Assembly (NCBI GenBank): GCA_023313575.1
Contig: JAJTTP010000029.1
Coordinates: 1 to 64,000, forward strand
Length of the DNA stretch: 64,000 nucleotides
Source: Eutypella sp. D-1
Lineage: Eukaryota > Ascomycota > Sordariomycetes > Xylariales > Diatrypaceae
Reading direction: 5' to 3'
A program made the translations under genes and the position numbers. Each line of letters begins with the position of its first letter. Within the stretch, counting starts at the first letter, position 1. The notes beneath the pieces are model-generated. The model had not been told where the DNA came from, did not search any database, and was given only the letters and a program-made list of their open reading frames with translations. Of this stretch, positions 35,683 through 40,025 are shown one piece after another.

Positions 35683-37503
35683 TGAAAGTGTGCTGGCTGC
35701 GCTATCTAGTTTCCCTTCATACTTATATTTTGAAACATCTTGATGTTACGATGTGCCCGCTTAGCGGAGTTGACGACGAACTACTTACTTATTTTTACCT
35801 TTAGAATATTATTTCACTTATAAGCACAGCGATGCATCGGTCTATTATTCAGGCATCAACTATTTTCTTCTAAGGGTTAATTTAACCGTATTTTGATCAT
35901 TGATGAAGAACATTGATTTGCGAACAGCCCAGTGAGAGGTGGAGCTCACTACCATTTCGTGTTATGGCACTTATATCATTTTATATCATCACGAGTGGCA
36001 AGCTTGATCAATTATAATACATTGTTACTATCAATGGTGGATCATTCCTGTGCGCGCAGGAAAGGAGAACATAGAATAAAATATAGCATTGAGCCACGCA
36101 CGAATGCGTATTTACAGTCTAATATATAAGGCTGATGCAGTGTAACCATCTATGACGCTATTGCCAGCCTTATACATCAGCCGCAACTTAGCTCTCCGTC
36201 CTAAAGATTCTCGCGCCTTTGGCGCCGACAATTAATACCTACAAGCCATCCTATCCCTGTTCTCATTGGCGTTACTGAGATAGGGGTCAACAAGTGGGGC
36301 ATTCACACCCTCCTTGACCCCTCCTGAAGCTGCAAGATGCAGTGCTGCCCGAAGCGCACATGACCGATGTAACCTACTGATAACTGCGGAAAGGAAAGTC
36401 TGCTACGGAACCATGGCTTATTGCCCACAGAACAATATCATGACATGCATGTTATTGGCCAATGAGACAGGGTAGGAGGGATTCACGCTATAAAAATGTC
36501 TTATCCGCCAGGCCAGTATCGCACAATTCGGAGGGGCTTTTCTGATGGATCTGAAAATTATCGACCCGGGAGGTACTTTGGCCGGGTTATGAATTCTTCT
36601 CACATGCCTCATATCTATAATTAAGTAGTTATACATGATTGGAACTTTAGGCTCCTCAGCCAGCCTGATGAGCGGAGTTACCATCCCCCAGAATATGAAC
36701 TATATTAACAGTATAGAAAATGTTGATGGGACAGGGTAGGAATGCAGTATATGCCAAAAGTAGTAATAATAAACAGTTGAAATAGTTCTCGAGGTCACGA
36801 GAGGCGAGGATTTGCGTCGGGTTTACTTCCGAATCCGAAGGTAGAGGGGTCTCACGATCTACGCATAACGCAAATTGGTAGCACGATCTGGCAAGCAGAA
36901 TCACAAGCAGAAGCCACAGAATACGAAAGAAAATATTCAGTTTCCTGCTACGACAGTTTTGGTTAGTGTTGCCCCTCCAAGAGTTGAATCATTAGCGGTG
37001 AGCTCACGGCAGCGTCGCCTTCGGGTAGCGAGGGAGAACTCGCTTTTCTTCGAGATCAAAACGAGGTACCAACACAGTGGTAGCGGTCATGTTTGGCGCA
37101 AGGAGGGCGGAGTTGTAGTTCATGGCAATTGATTACCAAAGAGTGTAGTATTTAGCCAAGAATGATTTACAGGGAAAGCAATCCTTGACCTCGGCGCTGA
37201 GATGACAGCCTGCACACACAAGTATATATACATAGACAGAAGGGGGCAGACCTCCACGGGCACCCAAAGTTGGGCAGCAATAAGTCCGTGTTACAATACT
37301 TACTCCAAACAGTACGTACACGTCAAAATTTCAGAGTGTATTGTGTGTGTGCTTATCGGGGTGTGGTAGGAAAAGAAGAACGGTGTCGCTGGTTGTTGTG
37401 GCTATGTTTTTTGTAGGAGGGATATACTTGGGTCTTATCTCTACGTGGAAACTCATTTGACAATAAGGTGGAGTATGGGAATTATTTCTGGTAGGAAGGT
37501 GTC
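35683..37503. other. Gene-free region
   Basis: AT-rich with only short frames. I looked here for an NLR-type partner of the SesB-like gene and could read no P-loop or repeat domain. Confidence 0.5.
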
Positions 37504-38852
37504 TCAAGCCCCTGAGCTTCGCTGTGTCGTGATGTTGCCCTTGCCATGTGTCGCGCCTCTGTTGTTAACCCCGAACTGGTGTGTCTCGTTGGCATCGCCG
37601 TTCGTCCAGCAGTGATTTGCCGTCCCAGTCTGGCTGGTCTCGTTCCCGTTACCACAGATATAAGATACGTTGCCGCCGTCATGACCGGACCGTGGCGCAA
37701 TATGGGAAGGGTACCCGAGGTGTGGCGAAGCCGTCGCGTTGTCCGCCATCATGCCTATGTTATCCGCGACTTGTACGTACCCGGGATCCGTGTCGTTTTC
37801 AAACTTGCAAATGCTCCTGTGATCGGCGTCCAGCGCGATCTGCTTCTCTCTTGTGCCCGGTAGCCCAAGAGTCGCTGACCGCTGGTCGACGACCTAGCAA
37901 CACCTCTCAGTCTGACTTTCCAGTAAGCTCATCACGGGGCACCAGTACTCACAAGTCCGATCGGGTACACGGGCCGGGTCTCGTAAAAGCTTAGAATCTG
38001 GAAGTCTTCGAGTAGCTGACGAAAGTCATCCGAGATATGCTCTAGGAACCAAGACCGAGCCTTTAGCGCTTTCATAAATGTGTTTTCGGGGGAGCCGGTT
38101 ATTGACCGGGCGATACTGGATGCTATGTCGCCAAGCTCAGCATGGTTACCCCCTCTATGTGGTGTGCCGAAAAAGGTGATGCCAAATGTGGAACCCCAGA
38201 TAGTTTCGTAGGTCCTGTCGCACTTGGCATGGACCAAAGCCTGGGATAGGTTCAGAGTAGAGTTCGGCCTCGCGCCGTCCCATATTCAGCCGGGGCACTT
38301 ACTCTCTTCACTACAATTCCGCCCAGGCTGTGGCAGACGAATATCAATGGGCGGTGAGGTTCTTCCTGTTATCATGGTAAGCGCTGGGAACTCTTCGATG
38401 CCGTGGCGCACGCACGATGCGAAACTTTTCTAGCCGGTCAAGCAGATTCTCCGCCTGTTCCCTAACCCCTGAGGATGCTGTCTGAAATGCGACGTTCGAG
38501 TTGTACCCGAAGAGGAAGATGCGGGCACTGGGGATACGTGCGGGCAGGAAGTCCCGGAGCCATAGCTTGTCTCGGGCAGTCCAGGTAGCCTCCGCATGAC
38601 ACTGCTTGTTGAGCGGGTTCAGACCATGTACAGCCACGATGCTGGTAAAATTGTATCAATTAGACATGCCCAAGCGAGGATCGTAGGCACGTACTCAACG
38701 TTGGGCTTCGAGGGATCAACCAAAATATCCAGGAAATTTTTCGTCCTACTGTCCCTCTGGCAGTCTGCCTGCTGGTGATCGGGTACTGCAGCCGGTGACC
38801 GTGACCTTACCCGGCCCGTAGATTTGGGCCAAAGCCAAGTAAATTTCGTCAT
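37504..38852 (-). CDS. SesB-like alpha/beta hydrolase with C-terminal G/N/Q 18-residue repeats
   Basis: Exons 38852-38695, 38641-38416, 38365-38303, 38240-37953 and 37893-37504 encode 374 residues. Every junction is in phase and restores family motifs: 'NVDIVAVHGLNPL' across intron 1, 'FRIEEPHRPLIFVCHSLGG' across a 50-bp intron 2 (GTGCGT donor, CTTAC branch-like), 'VVKRALVHAKCD' across intron 3, 'PIGLVVDQRSATLGLPG' across intron 4. The CHSLGG nucleophile elbow, 'FFGTPHRGGNHAELG' and 'DDFRQLLEDFQILSFYET' identify the SesB/SERAC1-like lipase domain often found as the effector module of fungal NLR receptors. Here no NB-ARC follows. Instead residues 317-370 form three 18-residue units with invariant Asn, Gly, Asn and Gln, shared with the divergent gene at 39690. 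The first 40 residues are less certain: an in-frame 39-42 bp segment may be spliced. Confidence 0.85.
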
Positions 38853-39689
38853 TGGGAGGAGGGTGAGGGGAAAATGTAACCCCAGCACGAAAAGTGACTC
38901 TGCTTCTACCTAATGAAACTGCGTCGATCTTGGGTATGAAAGACGAAGGAGGGGGAGTGCTAGGAGGGAGGGAAGGAGAAAAGAAAGGGAAAAAGGGGTA
39001 AGTCTTGCTATATAAAACTGCTGAAAGAACTTTTCAGGGGCCCTCGGGCACATGCACCGCGAATCAGCGTGAAGCTTTCCTATGTACGATGTCGTGTCAA
39101 CTGCAGCTGGCATAGTGACTGAATGTGAAGCATACGTCGGTAGGGCTGGCACTGTCGCAATATTGGTAGTATGCGATTGCTGAGTGGTTGCCTCGCATCC
39201 AGATCCATGGCACTGCGGCCATCCCGTTAACGATGGAGGGGAGTGTTTGGGGGAGGGGGAGGGGGCGCTGCCTTATGGGGATAGATAATCTCTACCATGA
39301 ACTTGGCTGGGGTCATTCAATTGGAACTAAGGAAGTATGTGCTTCTACTGCCCCTGACTGAGGCAACCCCTTGGGCAATGTGAGCAAGCTGGTCCCTTGT
39401 GCCTGACCGTAAAAAGCAATACAATCTAGCGATGAGGCTCTTCCCTTCCAAGTCAGGAAATATGACCATCATAAATCGTATATTAAGGCCATGGCTTCCA
39501 CATACTTTAGCACTACATATCCCACCTTAACAAGCAACTTATCCAAATAGGTTTACCGTCAACGCACCCCGAACAAAGCCCTTGCAAACTCATACGTAAG
39601 TAGCTAGGTCATCCCACCCCGCCCCCTAAAAAGTTTATATCGTGCATTAACAACCCGAACAGAAGACTATCAGACACGCACTTTCCAAC
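38853..39689. promoter_or_regulatory. Divergent promoter region of the SesB-like / small membrane protein pair
   Basis: 837 bp separate the two head-to-head ATGs. TATATAAAA at 39010-39018 lies about 155 bp upstream of the SesB-like start, and TTTATAT at 39634-39640 lies about 50 bp upstream of the small gene. A GGGGGAGGGGGAGGGGG tract lies near 39250. No open frame is convincing, so shared regulation from this stretch is plausible. Confidence 0.45.
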
Positions 39690-40025
39690 ATGGATTCAGA
39701 GACTAAGTCCTCGCCACCACCGCCCTACACGCCCTGCACGCAGTCTCCAAAAGACGGGAACCATACCACAATCTACGGGCACAAGAACCAGACCGACCAG
39801 TGGGGCGACAACAACCACAACCGCATCAACGGCAACGAGAACAAGGTGGTGCAGGCCCTGACCCGGGCCCCGACCCCGGCCCCGACCCCGGCCCCAGTTC
39901 CGACCATACCCAGGAAGACGCTGGTCCGGGCCTGGGCGCGGATGATGTTCGCCGTGATCCTGATCTTCGTCGCCTGGGAGCTGCAGAATCTCTTGAGTGC
40001 TTGGATGCTTGACCGCAAAAGCTGA
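39690..40025 (+). CDS. Small single-pass membrane protein with two SesB-shared G/N/Q repeats
   Basis: Single exon, 111 residues, with no signal peptide. The order is: Pro-rich N-terminus (SSPPPPYTP); two 18-residue units (21-38 and 39-56, for example GHKNQTDQWGDNNHNRINGN); a flexible linker of repeated APTP (about 59-73); then a basic patch and one C-terminal helix (about 82-105, 'MMFAVILIFVAWELQNLLSA') ending in LDRKS. The two units keep the same invariant Asn4, Gly10, Asn13 and Gln17 as the three units at the C-terminus of the neighbouring SesB-like hydrolase. Divergent arrangement and motif sharing suggest a two-component device in which repeat-repeat contact brings the proteins together at a membrane. 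By analogy with HET-s/HELLP-type effectors, membrane damage is a possible output, but this is inference. Confidence 0.75.
   Translation: MDSETKSSPPPPYTPCTQSPKDGNHTTIYGHKNQTDQWGDNNHNRINGNENKVVQALTRAPTPAPTPAPVPTIPRKTLVRAWARMMFAVILIFVAWELQNLLSAWMLDRKS
39866..39897. repeat. 12-bp tandem repeat encoding the APTP linker
   Basis: GCCCCGACCCCG is repeated in tandem within the 39690 gene. The unit is a multiple of three, so copy-number change alters linker length without a frameshift. Confidence 0.6.

Follow-up and report, generated by a model that had tools for sequence, protein, structure and literature searches.

A head-to-head SesB-like lipase gene and a gene for a small one-helix protein share a conserved Asn/Gly/Gln repeat in Eutypella sp. 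D-1: a candidate lipase-capture pair

The first 64,000 nucleotides of contig JAJTTP010000029.1 of Eutypella sp. D-1 (hereafter, the window) contain two genes arranged head to head, a SesB-like lipase gene on the minus strand and, on the plus strand, a gene for a small protein of 111 residues with a single predicted helix. Both proteins carry the same Asn/Gly/Gln-rich repeat, which is strongly conserved in SesB homologues of other fungi. We propose that the two form a homotypic pair, in which stacked solenoids would tether or cluster the lipase at the membrane of its tail-anchored partner and control its action on lipids. The probability that we attach to this reading is about 0.43.

Results

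The repeat is common to both genes

The original prediction had placed a SesB-like hydrolase and a membrane protein at this locus and had ascribed to both an 18-residue repeat. Both genes were confirmed (Table 1), and the 18-residue units were reproduced at residues 317-334, 335-352 and 353-370 of a 374-residue SesB model, and at residues 21-38 and 39-56 of the small open reading frame (ORF). While the repeat is real and shared, its finer unit is nine residues long. Units of the form GxxNxSxxx, or more generally GxxNx[ST]xxx, alternate with GxxNxTxQx, and one 18-residue coil therefore corresponds to two units. There are six units in SesB and about four in the small protein. The Gly/Asn period of nine residues reached the SesB value in none of 100,000 shuffles, and the small-protein value in four of 100,000.

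A hidden Markov model (HMM) of 36 columns was built from 24 SesB motifs, which were chosen from 54 motif-carrying homologues with the window sequence excluded. It matched the small protein at 34.4 bits. The best score among shuffles of the Asn/Gly-rich stretch was 12.8 bits (18,792 scored of 20,000), and among shuffles of the whole protein 10.0 bits (14,329 scored of 20,000); shuffles without a HMMER report were counted as unscored, which leaves 33,121 scored shuffles in total. An HMM of all 54 carriers gave 31.3 bits, versus a best score of 13.8 bits in 33,675 scored shuffles. A six-frame scan of 108 loci (289,145 bases, 9,188 ORFs) with the 24-motif HMM gave SesB and the small gene as its only matches below E 0.3. 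Both stretches are compositionally biased, and a chance likeness between them was considered for this reason. It is contradicted by the shuffle tests with either HMM, since shuffles that keep the composition never came near the observed score, and also by the lack of any other ORF below E 0.3 in the loci scanned. We conclude that a chance resemblance is very improbable and that the repeat is shared.

Both HMM and MAFFT alignments place the small-protein repeat on coils 2-3 of SesB. In coils 2-3, the aligned SesB motifs have nine invariant columns and a nearly invariant tenth. The small protein conserves eight of the nine, together with the tenth; the one that it lacks, the first Gly of coil 2, lies where the match has its edge. 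The lipase has its motif at the C-terminus and its neighbour has it near the N-terminus, an arrangement of the HET-S/NWD2 type.

The repeat is conserved in SesB homologues and is predicted to form a beta-solenoid

A protein search with SesB returned 460 homologues, and the counts given here rest on the best 120 of them. The closest homologue is 64% identical over 95%, and the top four are 61-64% identical over 95-99%. By a simple pattern count, 54 of the 120 carry the repeat (scores of 16 or more; the other 66 score 9 or less). The carriers preserve three kinds of ladder residue almost without exception: Gly at the first position of units two to six (53 or 54 sequences), Asn at the fourth position of all units (51-54) and Gln at the eighth position of alternate units (53 or 54). 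The positions between these ladder columns drift. The named carriers include Hypoxylaceae, other Xylariales, Gaeumannomyces (Magnaporthales), Pyrenochaeta (Dothideomycetes) and Fusarium, with lineage looked up for one example each of the Hypoxylaceae/Xylariales, Gaeumannomyces and Pyrenochaeta groups. Since the repeat is so strongly conserved, generic low complexity, which would have undone the original prediction, is rejected. From these alignments, the conserved columns look like a structural ladder.

AlphaFold2 models the SesB repeat as a beta-solenoid with six beta-strands (pLDDT 92-93 at residues 81-120 of exon 6). The confident single-chain model, the three-coil length and the near-invariant ladders across orders would also suit a repeat that is a stably folded solenoid of SesB, used in oligomerisation or in substrate or membrane binding and never amyloid, onto which the small protein docks by the same fold. 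In line with this, the block of 54 residues is longer than the NLR (NOD-like receptor)-side amyloid-like motifs, which are tabulated as 12-30 residues long (PMC9815663). We regard a purely structural solenoid as a credible, if unlikely, alternative.

By sequence profile, the SesB repeat is placed outside the sigma, PP and HET-s motif families. Genome searches at E <= 10 with the sigma profile (PF17106) gave three places, two on contig C1 and one on contig C72, those with the PP profile (PF17046) only two places on contig C6, and those with the HET-s(218-289) profile (PF11558) only two places on contig C34; the window was among none of these places. A Pfam scan of 25 motif sequences gave no significant match, and none of the three profiles appeared among its matches at E <= 10, in a scan whose HMMER filters drop most weak matches. 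A weak match to Curlin_rpt (PF07012; E 0.21) was seen in one of the 25. The motif is not described in the available portions of PMC3321046, PMC5485727, PMC9815663, PMC12261475, PMC12258605 and PMC12881547, with the unnamed classes of PMC9815663 compared by text only, where overlap is possible.

The lipase lacks the tail of its homologues

The SesB protein is an alpha/beta hydrolase of SesB-like type. It matches DUF676 at 21.2 bits (cut-off, 20.3), and the label is set by this match and by the homologues. Exon 4 encodes the sequence CHSLGG, whose elbow serine is presumably the catalytic nucleophile; the name SesB follows usage in the literature. All five introns of the splice model are GT..AG and are 50-62 bases long. 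Keeping the first intron in yields a five-exon protein of 374 residues. The five exons originally proposed were thus reproduced; our own model has six exons and 356 residues, and the count is five or six.

After the repeat, 53 of the 54 carriers continue for at least 17 residues and the remaining one for 12, while the window SesB has only four. The early end is not a slip of one assembly, because a second record (P0124), which agrees with the window SesB at 81 of 82 residues, stops at the same place. The frame stays open for 16 codons beyond the stop, which would encode mostly hydrophobic residues where homologues have their C-terminal tail. The missing tail may be a recent loss; that the stop is a readthrough site is less likely.

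The small protein has a single C-terminal hydrophobic helix

The small protein consists, in order, of a PPPPY-containing N-terminus, the repeat, a Pro/Thr/Ala linker and a single C-terminal hydrophobic helix. The helix is predicted by AlphaFold2 at residues 75-110, and the hydropathy maximum lies at residues 77-95 (1.85 over 19). As had been predicted for this membrane protein, no HeLo-like domain was found on it in a Pfam scan. The PPPPY stretch (positions 39714-39728, plus strand) presumably resembles the ligands of WW domains of the Nedd4/Rsp5 type.

Protein searches with the small protein returned two records, of 91% and 89% identity, and no match from any of the named species with a motif-bearing SesB. 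Compared with these two relatives, the small protein differs at 0 of 68 positions inside residues 22-55 and at 15 of 154 outside them (Fisher p = 0.0065). With borders at 21-56, the counts are 2 of 72 inside and 13 of 150 outside (p = 0.15). An insertion of eight residues in one of the relatives is excluded from these counts. Judged from these comparisons, the small gene looks coding, and special constraint on its motif is only suggested.

No receptor with the motif was found in the scanned flanks

The neighbour of the lipase gene does not encode an NLR, the small protein being 111 residues long with one predicted helix. The absence of an NLR from the window, which the original prediction had noted, was borne out: searches with NPHP3_N, NACHT and NB-ARC gave no match anywhere on the window's contig (344,411 bases), and none of the 26 further window ORFs was an NLR in a Pfam scan. 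These ORFs matched amino-acid transporters, anoctamin, eIF2A, P450 and others, or had no match.

Elsewhere, the genome is rich in NLR-type places (85 NPHP3_N, 41 NACHT and 12 NB-ARC at E <= 0.001, largely overlapping). Flanks of 1.5 kb on each side were scanned for 30 NPHP3_N and 12 NB-ARC places, about 1.3 kb upstream for 39 further NPHP3_N places, and 0.8 kb upstream only for 12 weak places (11 NPHP3_N and one NACHT). The remaining five NPHP3_N places lie inside loci already covered or are second pieces of covered genes, and 40 of the 41 NACHT places overlap those of NPHP3_N or NB-ARC. No motif match below E 0.3 was found in these flanks by HMM outside the window pair. The profile search for NLR N-termini with the repeat that had been suggested was thus negative in the NLR flanks of this genome, and carriers of the SesB type were found in other fungi. 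Typical receptor motifs should be caught in the scanned flanks, because known ones lie close to the nucleotide-binding domain: the N-terminal PP and HET-s motifs of this genome and a sub-threshold sigma match on contig C72 sit about 0.2-0.6 kb from the match to that domain. A receptor whose motif is far upstream, split by introns or diverged may exist.

The last point bears on a canonical NLR-controlled amyloid system, in which the receptor would be encoded elsewhere with a diverged or intron-split motif and SesB and the small protein would be its two outputs, as HELLP and SBP are for PNT1. Apart from the abundance of NLR-type places, such a system is favoured by SesB homologues with sigma or PP tails, which adjoin NLR genes and are proposed effectors (PMC3321046, PMC5485727). 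Against it stand the lack of any NLR-family match on the window's contig, the negative flank scan at loci where known motifs lie within about 0.6 kb of the nucleotide-binding domain, and the NLR-domain entries among the SesB matches listed, which do not carry the motif. We consider a hidden receptor rather unlikely.

Other motif pairs in the genome

A canonical HET-S/NLR pair is present at C34:2151684-2154800. The protein encoded on its minus strand is 297 residues long and matches HeLo at 180.5 bits and HET-s_218-289 at 75.0 bits; the divergent partner has an N-terminal HET-s match (22.8 bits, below the cut-off) just before an NB-ARC/TPR frame. A pair of the HELLP/PNT1 type lies at C6:435936-438820, where a HeLo-like protein split over two frames (PF17111, 61.5 bits) terminates in a PP-like motif and the NB-ARC/TPR gene divergent from it starts with one; both PP matches are below the cut-off (16.9 and 21.0 versus 23.2 bits). 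At C1:489353-491158, two sigma matches above the cut-off are found on opposite strands, 1.7 kb apart. Receptor and effector are unassigned in this case, because no NACHT, NPHP3_N or NB-ARC match is listed nearby, and it may be another unusual pair. The sub-threshold sigma match at C72:366924-368042 has nine-residue repeats of the GSGTQ type and lies about 0.6 kb upstream of NPHP3_N.

In the HET-s, PP and sigma pairs, the minus-strand motif is left of the plus-strand motif, that is, the pairs are head to head, and in the HET-s and PP pairs the effector motif is C-terminal and the NLR motif N-terminal. The window pair shares the head-to-head geometry, with the one-helix protein in the position of the NLR.

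Table 1. Features of the gene pair (window positions)
Feature	Positions	Strand	Details
SesB-like lipase gene	37504..38852	minus	six exons, 356 aa, splice model
SesB exons	38852-38811, 38756-38695, 38641-38416, 38365-38303, 38240-37953, 37893-37504	minus	six-exon model
SesB repeat	37519..37680	minus	residues 299-352 of 356; six 9-residue units = three 18-residue coils
In-frame stretch of 16 codons past the SesB stop	37456..37503	minus	three-frame reading; tail position of homologues
Intergenic region between the two start codons	38853..39689	divergent	837 bases
Small gene	39690..40025	plus	111 aa, single open frame
Small-protein repeat	39753..39854	plus	residues 22-55, about two coils; HMM and MAFFT alignments
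Hydrophobic core of the predicted small-protein helix	39942..39995	plus	residues ~85-102 in helix 75-110; AlphaFold2, hydropathy

Discussion

The system described here combines a SesB-like hydrolase with a small one-helix protein and is not a canonical NLR pair, and by analogy it would work like the homotypic solenoid capture of a lipase effector in fungal amyloid signalling. In the mechanism that we favour, each protein would carry a beta-solenoid whose 18-residue coils have two strands each and are stabilised by Asn, Thr/Ser and Gln ladders, with three coils in the lipase and about two in the small protein. The C-terminal helix would anchor the small protein in the membrane, its repeat lying in the cytosol. 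The solenoids of the two proteins would stack end to end, possibly as amyloid, and the small protein would tether and cluster the soluble SesB-like lipase and set when lipids are attacked. Growth alteration or cell death would be the likely outcome, if other SesB systems are a guide. The tails of homologues may provide membrane attachment in cis; in this lineage, it would come from the partner in trans. The small protein is read as a membrane tether or receptor stand-in, not as a second effector, because its motif is near the N-terminus, as in NLR receptors, and not C-terminal, as in effectors. Tethering or seeding of the lipase at the membrane by the small protein is the most economical account.

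Several observations weigh against homotypic capture. The main weakness is that conserved synteny of the pair is unsupported, because the small partner is known from two relatives only; for the same reason, a general partnership between such proteins and motif-bearing SesB is unsupported. When the small protein is modelled by AlphaFold2 from the single sequence, its repeat forms no strands (pLDDT about 50), and the apparent constraint on its motif depends on the borders chosen. The repeat is 24% identical to that of the window SesB and 22-30% identical to those of ten other aligned SesB rows, unlike sigma clusters, where the motifs within one cluster are most alike (PMC3321046). Mean hydropathy above 1.5 over 17 residues is reached in only 11 of the 54 homologue tails, and a membrane role of the tail, with its replacement in trans, is therefore a guess that concerns one lineage.

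The small protein could instead be a brake, its two coils capping the lipase solenoid and keeping the lipase inactive at the membrane. In favour of this reading, SesB has more coils than the small protein, the two divergent genes may be under common regulation, and the window SesB is without the tail by which homologues might cap their solenoid. Such a brake has no precedent in the available portions of the cited literature, where motif-sharing pairs are activating, and we consider it improbable.

Known systems resemble the window pair in part. One of the closest is the sesA/sesB/het-eN (sigma) cluster of Nectria haematococca, in which the SesB alpha/beta hydrolase has a Gly/Asn/Gln-rich C-terminal repeat in common with a neighbouring gene, and whose unit A, GxGxQFNxx, is also nine residues long (PMC3321046). 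The window motif differs from it in pattern (GxxNx[ST]xxx / GxxNxTxQx, six units) and is missed by PF17106; its neighbour is a one-helix protein, and no NLR or SesA was seen in the window. Sigma or PP extensions at the C-terminus occur in SesB homologues encoded next to STAND (signal transduction ATPases with numerous domains) genes, and one sigma-bearing protein has no STAND gene beside it (PMC3321046). The C-terminal position of the SesB motif, which had been taken as a departure from known systems, is thus a documented arrangement. What stands of the proposed undescribed two-gene variant is the shared, conserved motif and the lack of an NLR on the contig.

The HELLP/SBP/PNT1 (PP) system also combines a putative lipase, SBP, and a membrane-acting protein with a common motif (PMC5485727). 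PP is about 20 residues long, whereas the window block has several coils, is not matched by PF17046 (the PP motif, misnamed SesB; PMC12261475) and is joined by a small protein without a HeLo-like domain. HET-S/NWD2 is alike in having solenoid repeats at the effector C-terminus and the N-terminus of a divergent partner, which there is an NLR; its rungs are triangular and of 21 residues (PMC5485727), unlike the 18-residue two-strand coils predicted here. Other catalogued motifs comprise 16 NLR-side classes and PUASM (PMC9815663) and a new GDQN motif with SesA, whose pattern is unlike the window motif (PMC12261475). The top structural neighbours included two further kinds of repetitive beta-solenoid, the curlin repeats of CsgA and the RTX-type beta-roll R-modules of AlgE, with no significant sequence or structure match. 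The nine-residue unit is without the Asp of RTX repeats.

In the cited papers, fungal amyloid signalling consists of an NLR receptor templating an effector. That the window pair is an NLR-free amyloid-type circuit, in which a tail-anchored protein in the place of the NLR seeds or captures a SesB-like lipase with an undescribed three-coil Asn/Thr/Gln solenoid, is conceivable, though less likely than not. If true, the sensor would be a membrane event instead of an NLR, and the same solenoid family would act elsewhere in Xylariales on lipases with their own C-terminal tail. A conserved lipase solenoid with a membrane-anchored peptide as its only detected partner would mean that the receptor is replaceable, and would add a motif family that scans based on NLR N-termini could miss. 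The pair aside, a repeat block that occurs in 54 SesB homologues and that no Pfam family matches significantly would be a useful subject for structural work.
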